Source: Treponema sp. Marseille-Q4130 (lineage in GTDB: Bacteria > Spirochaetota > Spirochaetia > Treponematales > Treponemataceae). From it: DNA of 64,000 bases. Both the position numbers and the translations under genes were made by a program. Shown in pieces: positions 6,335 to 47,914 of this stretch (positions within the stretch are counted from its first letter, which is position 1; each line of letters opens with the position of its first letter). The stretch is from positions 84,448 through 148,447 of the forward strand of contig NZ_JACSET010000005.1 of assembly GCF_014334325.1 (NCBI RefSeq). Reading direction: 5' to 3'. The notes under the pieces are model-generated. The model had not been told where the DNA came from, did no database searches, and saw nothing but the letters and a program-made list of their open reading frames with translations.

Positions 6335-7051
6335 ATGTATGCTGTTTTTATGTATCTCTTTTTGATTGTCTTTATGCCGCTTTCGCTCGTATGGTATCTT
6401 ATACGTGAAAAAGATAAAGCTGTTATCCCCGTCGCGATCGCAGGGGCGCTTTCGTCGATCGTATTTTGCGCATTCAAAGCGTTTTTTTCTTTTTCATACC
6501 GTACACCGCGCGCAGGATTTTTCGTAAACTACGTATATATTCTGCTCGCCTACACGCTTATTCCCGTCGCCGCAGTCTATCTCGTTTTTTTAGTGCTTTC
6601 CAAAGATGACGACACCTTCCTTGTAAAATCATACTTTCCTCTTTTATGCGCTTTTTTTTCGGTATATCTTCCGTACACAGTGCTTTCCGGCAGCCGCTCG
6701 GCGTATTCGGCGTTCGAGCTTTTTTGCAAACCCGTACTCTATACGGCGATGCTCGCATCTTCGGCGATCTGCGTTTTTTTTCTGTATCGGACGGGAACGG
6801 CAGGAAAGCGCTTGGCGATATGGATACTCGCACTTGCCCTTTCTCTCTTCGTGCCTGCAGCAATCGAAGCGGCGTGGTTTATCGGATTTGCATTTTTTGT
6901 ACCCCTCGCGTTTTTTGCAGCGTACGTATTTTTTTCAGCTTGCGGAGCCGCTCACTTTTTGTGCGGCGATTTTCAGGAAGAAAGTATTTCGATTTTTTTG
7001 CCGAAAAAATCATTCCTTAAAATTATACAGCGAGTAAATCTTCAGATTTAG
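6335..7051 (+). CDS. Predicted multi-pass membrane protein, tail encoded by a repeat
   Basis: I recognise no family. The 238 residues are strongly hydrophobic, with about six or seven candidate membrane segments (for example VFMYLFLIVFMPLSLVW at the start, then AIAGALSSIVFCAF, ILLAYTLIPVAAVYLVFLV and LAIWILALALSLFVPAAIE). Loops are short and there are no obvious catalytic residues. The last eleven residues (LKIIQRVNLQI) and the TAG stop come from the first copy of the structured repeat beginning at 7015, so insertion of that element has probably replaced the original C-terminus. The gene stands alone between the divergent rho gene and the repeat array. No good Shine-Dalgarno sequence precedes the ATG, so the start is uncertain. 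Confidence 0.6.
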   Translation: MYAVFMYLFLIVFMPLSLVWYLIREKDKAVIPVAIAGALSSIVFCAFKAFFSFSYRTPRAGFFVNYVYILLAYTLIPVAAVYLVFLVLSKDDDTFLVKSYFPLLCAFFSVYLPYTVLSGSRSAYSAFELFCKPVLYTAMLASSAICVFFLYRTGTAGKRLAIWILALALSLFVPAAIEAAWFIGFAFFVPLAFFAAYVFFSACGAAHFLCGDFQEESISIFLPKKSFLKIIQRVNLQI

Positions 7052-7450
7052 GAGCTGTATAATTAGTGCGCGAGAGCGCACACGTACATCCGCGAGTTTT
7101 CTTTCGAAAACTCGAAGTTAAATTGAACGGCGCTATTTCAGACGTTCAATTTTAACCTCCCTTAAAATTGCACAGCGAGTAAATCTTCAGATTTAGGAGC
7201 TGTACAATTCGTGCGCGCAAGCGCACACGTTGATTCGCGAGTTTTCGAATGAAAACTCGAAGTTAAATTGAACGGCGCTATTTCAGACGTTCAATTTTAA
7301 CCTCCCTTAAAATTATACAGCGAGTAAATCTTCAGATTTAGGAGCCGTACAATTCGTGCGCGAGAGCGCACACGTACATCCGCGAGTTTTCTTTCGAAAA
7401 CTCGAAGTTAAATTGAACGGCGCCATCTCAGACGTTCAATTTTAACCTCC
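7015..7450 (+). repeat. Three tandem copies of a 145-bp four-hairpin element (type A)
   Basis: Copies lie at 7015-7160, 7161-7305 and 7306-7450, head to tail and nearly identical. Each copy contains, in order: a nested hairpin (outer AATTATACAGC/GCTGTATAATT, inner TAAATCT-TC-AGATTTA); GTGCGC...GCGCAC followed by ACGT; CGAGTTTTC...GAAAACTCG; and a hairpin TTAAATTGAACG/CGTTCAATTTTAA with the loop GGCGCTATTTCAGA, ending in CCTCC. Differences between copies fall mostly in loops, in linkers or at paired positions. Copy 1 encodes the end of the membrane protein at 6335-7051. A related copy is at 31894-32033 and differently paired relatives are at 20515 and 47691. Confidence 0.92.
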
Positions 7451-18746: not shown

Positions 18747-19714
18747 CGGCCGGCGCTCTCCGACTGAGTTTCGCGGCGCACTCTTACCGCAACGCTCACC
18801 GTTTCCGCGCTTTGATTTTCTATTTGAAAATACGACGGAAGCGTAATGTGTACGGGTAAATCGTAGGTACCGACCTTATCGATCGCGCTGCAGTCGGCAT
18901 ATACGGCGCTTTCCGAAAGTTCATAATCTTCGAGCGTCGGCACGGTTCCTGCGACGTCGAAACTTATCTTCGGAGATTCTCCTTCGGCTTCGAGCGCTTC
19001 GGGCAAAAACAAAAGGCGCACCGGCACATCGGTAAACTTTTTTACGAGCGGTTCTTCCGCAACGTCGACGTGCACGGTATAGGATTTTGCGGGGTTTATC
19101 GCGAGGAGCGAATTGATGTTTTGCAGCGACGCTTCAAACGTTTTCGAAACAGTAAGGGCGGTCACGTCGATCGCGGACGTATACACCTGCTTCGTTTCGT
19201 CGACGGCTCTGCGCGGTCCCACAATTTCGACCGTCGCCGGTTCCACAGACATTTTGGTAACGGCATAGCCGTGGGGCACTTCGCCTGAAAGAGAGGGGGC
19301 GATAGACACGTATTTCAGCGTCTTTTCTTCGAGGCGCATGGATACCGATTCGGGATTCAATTTTATTTCAAAGGGATCCATGAGCAAAAGTTTCGGCGAC
19401 AAGTGCACGGACACGGGAACCGAAAAGCTCCCTTCCTTTTCGTATTTCGTCAAATCGATCGTCGCCGTAAAATCGCTCTGCAGCGTTTCCGCAATATTTT
19501 CAGCCGTCGATCGTACCGTTATGCGCACATATTCGGGATAATCGCTCATCGGATACATACCTCCGTCGGCGACAACTTTTAACGGGACGGTATACGTTTT
19601 CCGATCGAGGATCGATGTGATGTGTACGACATAGAGTCCGAGCGCGAGGCCGAAGCAGATCACTTTTGCCTGCCAATTTTCCGTGAGCTTTTCAAACAGC
19701 TGCTTTGTTTTCAT
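18743..19714 (-). CDS. cdaR: YbbR-domain protein, CdaA regulator CdaR
   Basis: YbbR proteins anchor in the membrane and bind the diadenylate cyclase CdaA, adjusting its activity. One N-terminal membrane helix is visible (VICFGLALGLYVVHITSIL), followed by about 280 extracytoplasmic residues with repeated YbbR-like units (for example YPEYVRITVRSTAENI and IAPSLSGEVPHGYAV, then VEIVGPRRAVDE). It overlaps cdaA upstream by 23 bp and acpS downstream by 4 bp. The pairing with cdaA is the standard arrangement for this family in Gram-positive bacteria and is conserved here. Confidence 0.88.
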   Translation of the reverse strand: MKTKQLFEKLTENWQAKVICFGLALGLYVVHITSILDRKTYTVPLKVVADGGMYPMSDYPEYVRITVRSTAENIAETLQSDFTATIDLTKYEKEGSFSVPVSVHLSPKLLLMDPFEIKLNPESVSMRLEEKTLKYVSIAPSLSGEVPHGYAVTKMSVEPATVEIVGPRRAVDETKQVYTSAIDVTALTVSKTFEASLQNINSLLAINPAKSYTVHVDVAEEPLVKKFTDVPVRLLFLPEALEAEGESPKISFDVAGTVPTLEDYELSESAVYADCSAIDKVGTYDLPVHITLPSYFQIENQSAETVSVAVRVRRETQSESAGR

Positions 19715-20507
19715 CTATCGTATCCTCTACCTGATATGCGTCGGGCGTAATTTCGAGAAGGTTTTCGAGAATCTTCGTCAGCTCCGTCATCGTCAAATCG
19801 TAGTGCAGCTTCGAATCGTATGCGAGGCTTATCGCGCCCGTCTCTTCGGACACGACGAGCACAACGGCGTCCGAAACTTCCGAAAGACCGAGAGCCGCGC
19901 GGTGACGCGTACCGAAAGTTTTTTTAATATCATACTGTTCGCTCAGCGGCAAAAAACAGCCTGCGGCGAGGAGCTTTCCGCCGAGCACAAAACAGGCGCC
20001 GTCGTGGAGAGGAGTGTCCATGCCGAAAATCGTCACGAGCAGGCTCGACGAAAGGTCGGCGTTGAGCTTTGTACCGGTATTGAGGATATCGTCCATCTTC
20101 GTGTGCCGTTCGAATACGACGAGCATACCCCGCTTTTGCTTCGACAGTATCTCCGCCGCGATCAAAACGGAATCGACATAAGTGTGCTTTGAACGACTGC
20201 CGAAAGCGAACCACCTGCTCTGCCCGAGCTTTAAAAAGAGTTTCCGCATTTCCGGCTGAAACACGATCGCAAAGGCGATGAGAAAGCCGGGTCCCATGAC
20301 GTTTAAAATCCACTGCAGCGTTTCGAGATGCAAAAAAATGGAAGCGGCATAGGCCAAGCCGACGATGACGGCGGCGCGGATGATCTGCATACCGTTCGTT
20401 TTGACGATGAGCCGGTAGGCCTTATACAGGATAAACGTGAGGATACCGATATCGAGGATGAGCCTGATATAATCGTATGCCGCACGCAAACTGTCCAACG
20501 ATTTCAA
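19692..20507 (-). CDS. cdaA: Diadenylate cyclase CdaA (c-di-AMP synthase)
   Basis: CdaA condenses two ATP into cyclic di-AMP, a second messenger for turgor, potassium and cell-wall control. Three N-terminal membrane segments lie between residues 12 and 85 (LILDIGILTFILY, AAVIVGLAYAASIFL, FLIAFAIVF). The DAC domain then shows the catalytic motifs PLHDGACFVLGG and GTRHRAALGLSE. The frame extends upstream, but no homology precedes LKSLDSLRAAYDYI. I take a TTG at 20505-20507 as start because GGAGG lies six bases before it. That GGAGG directly abuts the first hairpin of repeat B, so the repeat occupies the whole upstream gap to folP. Confidence 0.92.
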   Translation of the reverse strand: MKSLDSLRAAYDYIRLILDIGILTFILYKAYRLIVKTNGMQIIRAAVIVGLAYAASIFLHLETLQWILNVMGPGFLIAFAIVFQPEMRKLFLKLGQSRWFAFGSRSKHTYVDSVLIAAEILSKQKRGMLVVFERHTKMDDILNTGTKLNADLSSSLLVTIFGMDTPLHDGACFVLGGKLLAAGCFLPLSEQYDIKKTFGTRHRAALGLSEVSDAVVLVVSEETGAISLAYDSKLHYDLTMTELTKILENLLEITPDAYQVEDTIDENKAAV

Positions 20508-20514
20508 TGTAATC

Positions 20515-20767
20515 CTCCATAAAAACTTTTGCAGGATGTTTTGACATCCGAAAAAGTTTTTAATCGTGCGCAAGCCCCGCAACGAGCGCGTAAGCGCGAA
20601 GTTTCGAGCGGCGCACACGTCGAATAGTCGAGTTTGCAAAATAAAGCATATTGTATTTCGTGCAATTTTATTGAAACGGCACGTATACACGTATTCTGCA
20701 AACATCCAAGCAAACTCGAAATGAAAGACACCGGCGATATTTCAGACGGTGTCTTTCATCATCCTCC
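20515..20767 (+). repeat. Four-hairpin element, expanded form (type B), upstream of cdaA
   Basis: The element has the same order as the type A repeats with different stems. Hairpin 1 (20519-20561) has outer stem AAAAACTTTT/AAAAAGTTTTT and inner stem GGATGT/ACATCC. Hairpin 2 is GTGCGC (20566-20571) with GCGCAC (20611-20616), enclosing an extra GCGCG-TAA-GCGCG hairpin. Hairpin 3 is CGAGTTTGC (20629-20637) with GCAAACTCG (20710-20718), enclosing about 70 extra bases. Hairpin 4 is ATGAAAGACACCG/CGGTGTCTTTCAT around GGCGATATTTCAGA-type loop sequence. CCTCC closes the unit. It fills the folP-cdaA gap. Confidence 0.9.
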
Positions 20768-31474: not shown

Positions 31475-31882
31475 CTATGATTCTTTTGTCCAGTCTTCGA
31501 TTTTCAGTCCGGGTATTCGGGAAAATTCTCTTATATTATTTGTAACTACAGTAAGATTTCTTGCTAACGCTTGGGCGGCAATCTGTGTATCAAAAGGTCC
31601 GATCGGAATACCTTTGTTTTCAAGATAGGCTCTAATCATTCCGTATGTTTCCGTGTCTTCTGTAGTAAAATCTATTATGTTAGTAAAATCTGCACAAAAA
31701 TCCAAAAGCGCCCGGCGATTTTTTTCTCTACATTGACTTTTTGAAACACCGTACTCCAACTCCGCAATTGTAATAGCGGAAAGAAACAATTCTTCTTTTT
31801 TGCAGTTAAATATTTTTTTTTCCAAATACGGATTTTTATTTTTTATGAGGAAAATACAGATATTTGTATCCAGCAAATACAT
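31475..31882 (-). CDS. vapC: VapC-type PIN-domain toxin
   Basis: VapC toxins are RNases that cut tRNA or rRNA. The PIN acidic residues are in place: YLLDTNICIFLIK at the start, AELEYGV near residue 50, DFTTEDTETYG near residue 90 and GPFDTQIAAQA near residue 110. I take the ATG at 31882 (GGGAAG just before it); an in-frame ATG at 31894 sits at the edge of the structured repeat. Its partner vapB lies upstream on the same strand, but 140 bp of repeat separates them. Typical vapBC pairs overlap or are adjacent. Confidence 0.9.
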   Translation of the reverse strand: MYLLDTNICIFLIKNKNPYLEKKIFNCKKEELFLSAITIAELEYGVSKSQCREKNRRALLDFCADFTNIIDFTTEDTETYGMIRAYLENKGIPIGPFDTQIAAQALARNLTVVTNNIREFSRIPGLKIEDWTKES

Positions 31883-31893
31883 TAAACTTCCCA

Positions 31894-32033
31894 TAAAATT
31901 GCACAGCGAGTAAATCTTCAGATTTAGGAGCTGGGCAATTCATGCGCGATAGCGCATAATCCAATAAACGAGTTTTCTGAAAGAAAACTCGAAGTTAAAT
32001 TGAACGGCGCTATATCAGACGTTCAATTTAAAC
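31894..32033 (+). repeat. Fourth copy of the type A four-hairpin element, between vapB and vapC
   Basis: The element matches the 7015-7450 units in order and largely in sequence: AATTGCACAGC with GCTGGGCAATT around the TAAATCT-TC-AGATTTA hairpin, a decayed ATGCGC...GCGCAT hairpin 2, CGAGTTTTC...GAAAACTCG, and TTAAATTGAACG/CGTTCAATTTAA with loop GGCGCTATATCAGA. On the minus strand it starts two bases after the vapB stop and ends at the vapC start region. Confidence 0.9.
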
Positions 32034-32034
32034 T

Positions 32035-32262
32035 TTAAAATTCCCGTTTTGGCATTGCCGGCTGATTTCTTCCTTCCGACATAAAATCATCGGAAAACTC
32101 GGAAAGACTTCTTTTAAGATTTTCCCACTTGCTTTCTTTCGGGGTTAGAATTATTGATGAGCCGATTTTCTTGATGAATAATTCGGAAAAATCGATATGA
32201 AATTCTTTCGGAATTCTTACCGCCTGACTGTTTCCGCTTGTGAACACTTTTGTACAAACCAT
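32035..32262 (-). CDS. vapB: VapB-type antitoxin, AbrB/MazE-like
   Basis: VapB neutralises VapC and represses the operon. The N-terminal half is a swapped-hairpin AbrB-type DNA-binding domain: KVFTSGNSQAVRIPKEFHID, then SSIILTPK. The C-terminal half is a charged tail that would wrap the toxin. It has 75 residues. GGAGG lies seven bases before the ATG, and the promoter and palindromic operator are directly upstream. Its stop codon is at the border of the inserted repeat, so the last residues could be altered from the ancestral form. Confidence 0.9.
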   Translation of the reverse strand: MVCTKVFTSGNSQAVRIPKEFHIDFSELFIKKIGSSIILTPKESKWENLKRSLSEFSDDFMSEGRNQPAMPKREF

Positions 32263-32633: not shown

Positions 32634-34097
32634 TTATTCATCCCCAACAAACCAGCCTTTTTGCGTGCGCATTATCAGGGCATTCCTTTTATACCTTTCC
32701 AGCTCACTTGACGGCACTTTTATGCTGCGTGCCGTCAGTTTTTTGCAGCCGGAAAAAGCCTTGTCAAATTTACCTGCATTATAATTGCACTTTAGCGTAA
32801 CAGCCGTAATCTTTTTGCAGTTGGAAAAGCATTCGCTCATATCGGTAACGCTGCTTGGGATCACGGGGGCTTGAGTAAGGCTTGTGCAGTTGGAAAAGCA
32901 TTCGCTCATATCGGTAACGCCGGCAGGGATCACGGGGGCTTGAGTAAGGCTTTCGCAGTCCCAAAAGCATTCCCTCATATCGGTAACGCTGCTTGGGATC
33001 ACGGGTGCTTGAGTAAGGCTTTCGCAGTCCCAAAAGCATGCCCTCATATCGGTAACGCTGCTTGGGATCACGGGTGCTTGAGTAAGGCTTATGCAGTTGG
33101 AAAAGCATTCGCGCATATCGGTAACGCTGCTTAGGATCACGGGGGCTTGAGTAAGGCTTTCGCAGCCGGAAAAGCAGTAGCGCATATCGGTAACGCCGGC
33201 AGGGATCACGGGGGCTTGAGTAAGGCTTGTGCAGCCGGAAAAGCAGGAGCGCATATCGGTAACGCCGGCAGGGATCACGGGCGCTTGAGTAAGGCTTATG
33301 CAGTTGGAAAAGCAGGAGCGCATATCGGTAACGCTGCTTGGGATCACGGGGGCTTGAGTAAGGCTTGTGCAGCCGTAAAAGCATTCCCTCATATCGGTAA
33401 CGCTGCTTGGGATCACGGGGCTTTGAGTAAGGCTTGTGCAGCCGTAAAAGCAGCTGTACATATTTGTAACGCCGGCAGGGATCACGGGCGCTTGAGTAAG
33501 GTTTCCGCAGCCGTAAAAGCACCAGCTCATATCGGTAAGACCGGATATTTCTGCAAACTTAAGCACAACTTTTTTAGTCGGATTATTGTTTAGTATTTTT
33601 CCGAGTGGGCTCGGTTTGCAAGGATAGGTACTATCTCCCTTTAAGTCCGCCGCCGTAAGCCCGGTTACTTTGATGTAATAGATTCCGTTTATATCCGGTG
33701 CGGCAGTTTTAAGATGGTTGTCCAAATTTGCACCGTTTGCTCCGAATGGGACTTCAGCATACGTTGCCGGTGTAAAACTTACGTTCACTTTTGTGTCGGC
33801 ACTTATCGTTACATCTGCAGTCGGACTTCCGGCGGTGCCGCCGTCTTCAAATGTTCCGCCGGTAATTGTCCACGTGTCAACTTTGTAATCGGTTTCCGGC
33901 AATGCGGTAAACGTAATTACCGTGCCTTTCTCGACTTTACCGCTTGCAGGATTTGCGTTCACTGTTCCGTGTTCTCCTGCCGTCACCTCTACGGTGAAAG
34001 TTTCATCGCTTACTTCCGTTTTACATCCGATCGTACATAATGCGGCAAGCAAAATCGCCGCCGCAAGTATTCCGATTTTTTTTAAACAGGTTCTCAT
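32634..34097 (-). CDS. BspA-like leucine-rich-repeat surface lipoprotein
   Basis: A signal peptide with lipobox (LAALCTIGC) predicts a lipoprotein. Residues 33-95 form one bacterial beta-repeat (EHGTVNANPASGKVEKGT, DYKVDTWTITGG). A linker follows, and from about residue 190 there are ten 23-residue TpLRR units with consensus TDMRxCFxxCxSLTQAPVIP plus SSV or AGV, then a diverged unit and a C-terminal cap (KVPSSELERYKRN). BspA/TpLRR proteins of oral bacteria bind host matrix and cells. The units are nearly identical in DNA, so copy number may vary. GGAGGAAAT precedes the ATG. Confidence 0.92.
   Translation of the reverse strand: MRTCLKKIGILAAAILLAALCTIGCKTEVSDETFTVEVTAGEHGTVNANPASGKVEKGTVITFTALPETDYKVDTWTITGGTFEDGGTAGSPTADVTISADTKVNVSFTPATYAEVPFGANGANLDNHLKTAAPDINGIYYIKVTGLTAADLKGDSTYPCKPSPLGKILNNNPTKKVVLKFAEISGLTDMSWCFYGCGNLTQAPVIPAGVTNMYSCFYGCTSLTQSPVIPSSVTDMRECFYGCTSLTQAPVIPSSVTDMRSCFSNCISLTQAPVIPAGVTDMRSCFSGCTSLTQAPVIPAGVTDMRYCFSGCESLTQAPVILSSVTDMRECFSNCISLTQAPVIPSSVTDMRACFWDCESLTQAPVIPSSVTDMRECFWDCESLTQAPVIPAGVTDMSECFSNCTSLTQAPVIPSSVTDMSECFSNCKKITAVTLKCNYNAGKFDKAFSGCKKLTARSIKVPSSELERYKRNALIMRTQKGWFVGDE
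32833..33540 (-). repeat. Tandem 69-bp repeats encoding the LRR units
   Basis: Ten consecutive near-identical 69-bp units encode the 23-residue LRRs. Variation is limited to a few blocks (Trp/Phe/Ser after CF, SSV versus AGV), and combinations recur in a shuffled way, suggesting unequal exchange between units. Because 69 is divisible by three, other frames also stay open across the array, but they are artefacts. Confidence 0.93.
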
Positions 34098-46426: not shown

Positions 46427-47674
46427 CTAGCGATACAAACCCTTTTGGAGTATTTCCATGCATTCCTTTGCCGAGATTTTTCCGGTCAAGGCCTGTGAAA
46501 CCGTGTTGGGCCACAGCGTCGTGACGAATTCCGTCGTCGTATCGCGGATCGGAAGGATGCCTGCGAAACTCTGCCCGTCAAGCGAAGCTTTCATAAAGCG
46601 ATTGCTTTGGAAATACTCGCGCGCGCCGACGGTTTTGCTGACGGGAATATTTCCCGTACCTTCGCACCACATCCGCTCGCCTTCTCCCGCCGCGAGGTAT
46701 GCGACCCATTCGAACGCCGCTTCGGGATTTTTGCACGATTTGAAAATAGCGGTATCGGTATCGCCCATGCTTGTCCAGCGCCCCTTGCCTGAAGGAAACG
46801 GAAACGCGGATACGTCGTCGCCGAATATCTTTACCATATCGGCGGCTGAACCGGTATGATGGATCGTCATGGCCGTCAACCCCGACTTGAAATTTGCCAT
46901 GATTTCGCTGAAACCGTCGCTCGTCGCTGTCGGCGGGACATAACCGTTTTTATACAGATTGATAAAATCCTGCATACCTTTGATCGCTTCGGGCGAATCG
47001 AGCTTGGCAAAATTACCGCCGGCCGCATGGATAAAGCTGCCCCACGGTTCATGTCCGTTTCTGCCGCCGCGCATACCGAAACCGTAGACATCCGTTTTAC
47101 CGTCGCCGTTCGTATCCATCGTACATTTTTTTACCGCGTCCAAAAATTCCTCATACGTTTTCGGAACGGAAATGCCGGCTCTCTTAAAATACGAAGGCCT
47201 ATAGTACACGTAGAGCACTTGGATATTCCACGGCATGACATAGATTTTATTCGAGCCGCCCGCCTGCTTCATCACATTCCAAATATTGGCATCGATATCG
47301 TTTTTCTTTTCCCACTTGTCGACATAGGGCGTCAAATCGAGCAGCAGATTATTGTTCGCAAAAAGCGGCGTCGCAGTCAATTTCCACGTTGCGCAGTCGA
47401 TATCGCCGCCGCCCATAGCCGCATTGAACAGGTTCTCCGAAAACGCACCTCCGTCCCACGCAGCTTCTTCGCCGATGACGGTAATGCCCTTGCCGTTTTC
47501 CGCATTGAATTTTTTGATGATATCCTGCATCAGCTGCGAATATGCGGTCGTATCCGCCCAATAGCGGAAACGCACGGTTTTTCCTCCCGACGAAGCGGGA
47601 TCGTTTGCTCCCATCGCAAACACCAGCGTACCAGCAGCGATAAAGACCCATAGCCGCGACAGCATCTTTTTCAT
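46427..47674 (-). CDS. Family 1 extracellular solute-binding protein (sugar ABC importer)
   Basis: This periplasmic receptor starts with a signal peptide (LWVFIAAGTLVFAMGA) and no lipobox cysteine. Family 1 features: VRFRYWADTTAYSQ, NAAMGGGDIDCATW, PRTYEEFLDAVKK-like KTYEEFLDAVKKC, and FGMRGGRNGHEPWGSF, with many Trp and Tyr typical of sugar contacts. Length is 415. It is the first gene of the long minus-strand island, with promoter and operator at 47915-47965 and the structured repeat C forming most of its leader. GGAGGTAAT precedes the ATG. Confidence 0.93.
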   Translation of the reverse strand: MKKMLSRLWVFIAAGTLVFAMGANDPASSGGKTVRFRYWADTTAYSQLMQDIIKKFNAENGKGITVIGEEAAWDGGAFSENLFNAAMGGGDIDCATWKLTATPLFANNNLLLDLTPYVDKWEKKNDIDANIWNVMKQAGGSNKIYVMPWNIQVLYVYYRPSYFKRAGISVPKTYEEFLDAVKKCTMDTNGDGKTDVYGFGMRGGRNGHEPWGSFIHAAGGNFAKLDSPEAIKGMQDFINLYKNGYVPPTATSDGFSEIMANFKSGLTAMTIHHTGSAADMVKIFGDDVSAFPFPSGKGRWTSMGDTDTAIFKSCKNPEAAFEWVAYLAAGEGERMWCEGTGNIPVSKTVGAREYFQSNRFMKASLDGQSFAGILPIRDTTTEFVTTLWPNTVSQALTGKISAKECMEILQKGLYR

Positions 47675-47690
47675 ATTACCTCCTAAAATT

Positions 47691-47903
47691 CGAAATAAAA
47701 AGCGGCGGCGATATCTCAGACGACGCTTTTTATCCTCCTCTCATAAAAACTTTTGCAGGAAATATCAATTTCCGAAAAAGTTTTCAGCCGTGCGCCCTCG
47801 CGCACACGTTAGATAGTCGAGTTTGCACTGCAAACTCGAAATAAAAAGCGGCGGCGATATCTCAGACGACGCTTTTTATCCTCCTCTCATAAAAACTTTT
47901 GCA
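47691..47903 (+). repeat. Four-hairpin element type C: partial, full and partial units
   Basis: A full unit (47741-47886) has hairpin 1 with outer AAAACTTTT/AAAAGTTTT and inner GGAAAT-ATCA-ATTTCC, hairpin 2 GTGCGC...GCGCAC plus ACGT, hairpin 3 CGAGTTTGC...GCAAACTCG, and hairpin 4 ATAAAAAGCG/CGCTTTTTAT with core GGCGATATCTCAGACG, ending CCTCC. An exact 67-bp direct repeat (47691-47757 and 47837-47903) brackets it, so it is part of a tandem array with truncated ends. It forms most of the leader of the ABC operon on the minus strand. Confidence 0.92.
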
Positions 47904-47914
47904 TGATTGACTGT

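Follow-up and report, generated by a model that had tools for sequence, protein, structure and literature searches.

A four-hairpin repeat of Treponema, probably mobile and aimed at the complement of Shine-Dalgarno sequences

Analysis of a 64,000-bp stretch of the Treponema sp. Marseille-Q4130 genome (contig NZ_JACSET010000005.1; hereafter the window) revealed seven units of a repeat at four loci, all read on the plus strand, namely three tandem units of type A, one further unit of type A, two full units of type B, and one remnant. The type A array, identified by direct reading and folding, is bordered at its left edge by the target TTCC (7013–7016, direct reading) and consists of unit 1 with hairpins 1–4 and a CCTCC right end (7017–7160), followed in tandem by unit 2 (7161–7305) and unit 3, termed A3 (7306–7450). 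At the second locus, direct reading and folding revealed a type B element of 249 bp with inserts in the loops of hairpins 2 and 3 (20519–20767), which adjoins the target CCTCC (20514–20518), the complement of the GGAGG Shine-Dalgarno sequence of a cdaA-like gene; this minus-strand host gene (19692–20507, TTG start at 20507–20505) encodes the diadenylate cyclase CdaA (TIGR00159). The type A element at the third locus (31893–32036, direct reading and folding) has a degenerate right end and follows a TTCCC target (31888–31892) adjoining the start of a minus-strand gene for a VapC-family tRNA(fMet) endonuclease (31475–31882, CAT start at 31880–31882). Close by, about ten 69-bp units in tandem were observed (32737–33657), perhaps a protein repeat. 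The fourth locus begins with the target CCTCC (47679–47683), complementary to the Shine-Dalgarno sequence of a minus-strand gene (46427–47674) with weak similarity, below cut-offs, to sugar ABC transporter substrate-binding proteins, and harbors, by direct reading, a hairpin-4-only remnant with CCTCC at its end (47684–47738), a compact full type B element of 146 bp (47739–47884), and the left-end fragment of a further copy (47885–47907). These four loci and seven units had been recognized in a preliminary description of the window as copies of a roughly 145-bp unit of types A, B, and C; we found the copy placed there at 20515 to be 249 bp long owing to its hairpin 2 and 3 loop inserts, whereas type C is best understood as type B in its compact form.

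Compact copies are organized as hairpin 1, hairpin 2 (GTGCGC..GCGCAC), hairpin 3 (CGAGTTT..AAACTCG), and hairpin 4 with the core GGCGMTATYTCAGACG in its loop, and end on the right with CCTCC or CTTCC. Element size is about 145 bp in the compact form and up to about 360 bp with loop inserts. The fixed order of four hairpins, as previously described, was recovered in single-sequence folds of 18 copies of the Treponema sp. genome, A3 (7306–7450) showing a divergent fold at hairpin 1. Several copies carry nested modules, namely a roughly 65-nt one (TAGAGCC..GAATCA) inside the loop of hairpin 1 and, as a similar loop insert, one of 85 nt within hairpin 4 of other copies (loci listed for nested modules: L004, L013, L015, L030, and L193). 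A second repeat, likewise short and palindromic (CGCAACGAGCGCG..CGCGAAGTTTCGAGCG), is arranged as an array and also occurs inside hairpin 2 loops of the element (noted at L031, 2100–2300, in the hairpin 2 loop of L018, and at L046). Minimal copies consisting of hairpin 4 only were seen at Shine-Dalgarno sites at L009, L043, L049, and in the window at 47684–47738; they are perhaps deletions between ATAAAAA repeats.

The hairpin 4 core had been singled out earlier as conserved, and indeed GGCGMTATYTCAGACG is present at all seven places with 0–1 mismatch. Allowing up to 3 mismatches, the window contained 11 matches compared to a shuffle mean of 2.6 (0 of 100 shuffles reached 11), and the whole genome, at up to 2 mismatches, 96 compared to 23 for a reversed control. 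The compensatory changes originally proposed for the stems of hairpins 1 and 4 were confirmed for hairpin 4 and for the inner stem of type B hairpin 1. Among 31 hairpin 4 sequences, 71 double-changed cells were counted versus 24.1 after shuffling (0 of 500 shuffles that high), 9 of 14 pairs were altered on both sides, and 86.6% of cells paired as opposed to 32–50% for slid versions. Likewise, the inner stem of type B hairpin 1 displayed 33 double-changed cells versus 8.4 (0 of 500 shuffles as high), with 4 of 6 pairs altered on both sides in 37 copies from several genomes; further pair types in this test numbered 5, below the shuffles (6.5). The outer stem of type B hairpin 1 and hairpin 2 were invariant across the 37 copies and thus uninformative on covariation. 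The repeat is therefore real, with a covarying hairpin 4 stem and a covarying inner stem of type B hairpin 1.

A covariance model of hairpin 4 gave 86 matches at E ≤ 0.01 in the 2.79-Mb Treponema sp. genome (G000), of which the 31 training sequences match by construction and a few may be decayed copies or chance matches, given that 9 of 30 fetched regions (L166–L168, L171, L173–L175, L177, and L178) held no copy under a stricter filter. The search for further copies that the preliminary description had called for was thus positive, and it extended to the genus, where 32 of 98 genomes, G000 included, matched at E ≤ 0.001 and nine contained at least 13 matches. Named carriers detected by exact pattern were T. 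socranskii subsp. socranskii, T. socranskii subsp. paredis, and T. parvum, and longer matches of the window to both T. socranskii subspecies were about 79–98% identical, suggesting that the host is probably closely related to T. socranskii. Searches of phages and plasmids with the type B element, of plasmids with the type A element, and of viral contigs with two exact element patterns resulted in no match. In the genomes G049 and G042, the strand of the element looks skewed along the chromosome, which may merely follow gene orientation.

Evidence for mobility includes empty sites, at only two informative loci. The window copy 20519–20767 is cleanly absent from both T. socranskii subspecies (G098 and G099), in which the empty site reads ..aatCCTCCgttacaa.. 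(also written ..aatCCTCCgttacaat..), compared to ..aatCCTCC[249 bp ending CATCATCCTCC]gttacaat.. at the filled site. Similarly, the 302-bp copy C15:139537 is absent from G098, where the site reads ..atgaCCTCCttttttg.., and from G099, where the site has drifted and lost CCTCC. At a third site, G049 differs from T. parvum in a 228-bp copy adjacent to an older fragment of a left end, a difference that may reflect loss in T. parvum just as well as gain. Overall, a script comparing left flanks assigned 7 of the 28 type B copies available for the T. socranskii subspecies to a site shared with G000, and one further shared site missed by the script (L139 with L008) was found by eye. Recent amplification was observed in G042, where 11 copies of 216 bp are 96.8–100% identical to each other (mean 98.8%), with left flanks only 27.9% identical (two of its 13 model matches, at 996 kb, lie outside the 11 compared). 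The earlier suggestion of a mobile hairpin element is thus supported by the empty sites and by this recent burst.

What the preliminary description had missed, and what the follow-up analysis revealed, is the Shine-Dalgarno target. The left flank of type B copies follows the pattern CAT, 2–10 letters, CTCC, element, i.e., the complement of a start codon and its Shine-Dalgarno sequence; by eye, all 11 copies of G042 have CAT 2–10 letters before CTCC. Of the 43 non-tandem left ends of type B, 39 had this placement, versus 19 of 40 non-coding CTCC of the window (Fisher p = 2.7e-5), the control being drawn from the window only and allowing a gap of 2–10 letters between start and CTCC, as against 2–12 for elements, all accepted ones of which had at most 10. 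The 43 left ends, seven of which are fragments of truncated copies, remained after 8 of 51 non-tandem script matches had been dropped by eye as spurious (5-edit or internal); without curation, the script counted 39 of 51 with a 60-codon open frame. Of the four unmarked ends, one lies after the right end of another copy and three have CAT with too short an open frame; among the 39 marked ends, two (C5:45723 and C7:4441) lie at a Met inside an rpn-like gene, and in three the start reads CAC or CAA. In comparison, the script assigned this placement to 1 of 10 type A and 3 of 11 type D copies, and TTCC was their commonest left flank. With respect to the CTCC preference, either the real target is longer than CTCC or other sites were removed by selection, and such selection may exaggerate the target preference.

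The target tracks the tail of the element: type B has the tail CCTCC and the target CTCC, and types A and D have the tail C/GTTCC and mostly the target TTCC. Among 49 type B copies (34 from G000, 11 from G042, and 4 from G049; hairpin-4-only copies and L097–L101 of G049 were excluded), the left and right 4-mers were both CTCC in 41 and unequal in 7, e.g., CTCT on the left and CTCC on the right, so that the right end seems to be mostly the element's own rather than a target duplication. Some copies revealed agreement of 7–11 letters between left flank and right end, exceeding permutations in the 49 copies (p < 5e-5) and in the 38 copies whose right flank does not resemble a left end (p = 0.03). 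This excess could stem from gene conversion or from insertion aided by identity between tail and target.

Ten host genes, picked from 18 located ones, were scanned and had unrelated best matches, some of them below the model cut-off, namely TatD, triose-phosphate isomerase, fructose-bisphosphate aldolase, SerC, Cmk, uracil permease, a nitroreductase-like protein, an FlgF/FlgG-type protein, and, from G042, MurD and Obg. Together with CdaA and the VapC-family protein of the window, these hosts do not look like a single regulon. One subfamily of copies starting with CAAAAAAC (L029, L044, L037, L051, L151, and L098) is found in two genomes at starts or internal Met codons of rpn-like genes (TIGR01784/PF04754-related); in both of these genes that were scanned, PF04754 scored above the cut-off, and TIGR01784 did so in L029 only. 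The rpn-like gene was considered as a candidate for the moving enzyme and dropped as unproven, since copies also sit inside such genes.

Comparison with Rfam showed that copies of the element match TD-1 (RF03155, "Cis-reg") on one strand and TD-2 (RF03162, "sRNA") on the other, both families belonging to clan CL00124. The TD-1 gathering score of 64.5 was passed by L011 of G000 (66.9 bits) and by L068 (66.5 bits) over model positions 1–120, the remaining copies among the matches listed scoring 35.7–62.8 bits, and cmscan of the whole window at the Rfam cut-off reported none of the repeats. In a permissive scan, 15 of 20 G000 loci matched TD-1 at E ≤ 0.05, one of them (L011) above the cut-off; for 20 loci from other genomes, 14 matched TD-1, including one above the cut-off (L068), and one more matched TD-2 only. 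The best copies for TD-2 reached 48.1 (L060) and 47.4 (L050) relative to a cut-off of 48.7, at full length and on the strand opposite to TD-1. According to the match positions, TD-1 spans hairpins 3–1 on the gene-sense strand and stops short of the hairpin 4 core, and TD-2, on the opposite strand, extends over hairpins 2–4 as well as the right end; the 3' terminus of the TD-1 consensus, UaggA, is the Shine-Dalgarno end. Both families reportedly originate from Weinberg et al. 2017. Going by the starts of abstracts, we identified no paper on the element in the literature on Treponema repeats, Shine-Dalgarno insertion, MITEs, RAYT, and TD-1/TD-2. Judged from sequence, the family is already known as TD-1/TD-2, and its unity as one element and its mobility appear to be new.

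We interpret the repeat, with a probability of about 80%, as a non-autonomous mobile hairpin element that targets the complement of Shine-Dalgarno sequences. The element is too short to encode a transposase and would insert directly 3' of a short one-strand target, CTCC for type B and mostly TTCC for types A and D, its right end bearing nearly the same letters as the target. Since a non-coding CTCC is frequently complementary to a Shine-Dalgarno sequence, insertion there puts type B immediately upstream of that sequence and antisense to the gene, and would spare the original Shine-Dalgarno sequence and its spacing. As the right end is itself a target, further insertions are possible there, which would give tandem arrays. 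An enzyme encoded elsewhere might recognize the folded single strand, cut once behind the target and once behind the right end, and paste the strand in the manner of IS200/IS605. Taken by itself, this single-strand mechanism, proposed by analogy, has slightly less than an even chance, and the strict IS200/605 model does not predict the 7–11-letter agreement of flank and end. In a doubtful but conceivable variant, the element would locate gene starts through a match of its CCTCC tail with the Shine-Dalgarno strand and be moved by an enzyme of neither RAYT nor IS200 type, entering translation start regions with the ribosome-binding site left unbroken.

Several other explanations share part of this evidence. 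CTCC on both sides of 41 of 49 copies, together with the single CCTCC at the empty site and the unexpectedly long match between left flank and right end that some copies show, would also suit a MITE mobilized by a DDE transposase, with inverted ends that are short (type B ATAAAAA...TTTTTAT) and CTCC as target duplication; we consider this rather unlikely, because the left and right 4-mers are unequal in 7 of 49 copies, the inverted ends comprise just about 7 bp, and conserved internal hairpins would be superfluous for the DDE mechanism, which does not require them. Copy number could also change by recombination between repeats instead of transposition, and at two places this may have happened in comparison to G099: at C4 (39.9–40.2 kb), G000 has two tandem copies and G099 one, and the 146-bp unit at 47.7 kb is not repeated in G099. 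As a general explanation, recombination is very improbable and largely refuted for solitary copies, which have exact empty sites and unrelated flanks, but still likely for arrays. The stems covary and TD-1 matches the gene-sense strand, with two copies above the cut-off and a consensus ending in UaggA, as would be expected of a cis-regulatory 5' UTR RNA that folds within the gene-sense transcript and governs how the neighboring gene is translated; a cis-regulatory RNA had been one option of the preliminary description. We judge this improbable, though, given that the ten scanned host genes are unrelated, most sites are not common to the subspecies, copies of types A and D lie mostly away from start codons, and TD-2 matches the opposite strand of the same copies.

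As for the moving enzyme, the preliminary description had also brought up a REP-associated transposase, which found no support in the Treponema sp. genome: its single Y1_Tnp match, with a frame of 102 aa, represents a remnant of IS200, and a profile built from six Treponema RAYT-like proteins had no match there at E ≤ 5. In the genus sample, Y1_Tnp matches occurred in 26 of 98 genomes, with none in the carriers G042, G049, G052, G088, G030, and G021. A REP-like element moved by a RAYT nevertheless has some evidence on its side, since RAYT-related proteins of about 250 aa are encoded by 11 of the 98 genomes, including 6 that carry elements and 3 of the 9 with at least 13 copies, and in G010 an element is located exactly at the start of a RAYT-like gene. 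However, RAYT-like genes are missing from 6 of the 9 high-copy genomes, their association with elements gave p = 0.17 for any copies and p = 0.06 for at least 13, and the NCBIfam RAYT model scored all three scanned proteins below its cut-off. At E ≤ 5, the RAYT profile matched neither G000 nor 9 of 11 further genomes, among them both T. socranskii subspecies (G098 and G099), T. parvum (G100), G042, and G049, and hit G010 three times and G030 once, with a short weak match; we therefore regard RAYT as an unlikely mover. A left-end search covered four genomes, and the 20 regions inspected that had left ends and no strong model match (G000, G049, and G100) held neither an autonomous copy nor a transposase; they were truncated or internally deleted copies, or full copies scored poorly by the model.

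If the main interpretation is true, two Rfam families, one classified as a cis-regulatory RNA and the other as an sRNA, would correspond to the opposite strands of a single mobile element, and mobility could account for the Shine-Dalgarno placement without any regulatory role, a warning that covariation and a 5' UTR position do not prove a regulatory RNA. The element would have an unusual route to insert beside genes, housekeeping ones included, without destroying them; being directed at ribosome-binding sites, it would be a natural source of new 5' leaders, and the missing enzyme offers a concrete target for discovery.

With regard to known systems, TD-1 and TD-2 comprise the same sequences as the element, but are typed as cis-regulatory RNA and sRNA, whereas here they appear as two strands of one mobile element that additionally contains hairpin 4 and the right-end target. 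REP/BIME sequences with their RAYT are likewise palindromic, often tandem, multi-copy, and non-coding; in contrast, the element has four hairpins, a Shine-Dalgarno target, and a genome in which no RAYT was found. A guide and a target are described for IS200/IS605 in PMC6006769. PATEs, derived from IS200/IS605, share asymmetric hairpinned ends, a fixed left target, a target-like right end, and a clean empty site with our element, which differs in having four hairpins, in a left target that may deviate from the right end, and in that a matching-type tnpA is missing in 6 of 12 carrier genomes searched. BOX, RUP, and Correia are MITE-like repeats that are also short, non-autonomous, and mobile, but the element described here has no long terminal inverted repeats and, unlike them, a strand-specific target at gene starts.
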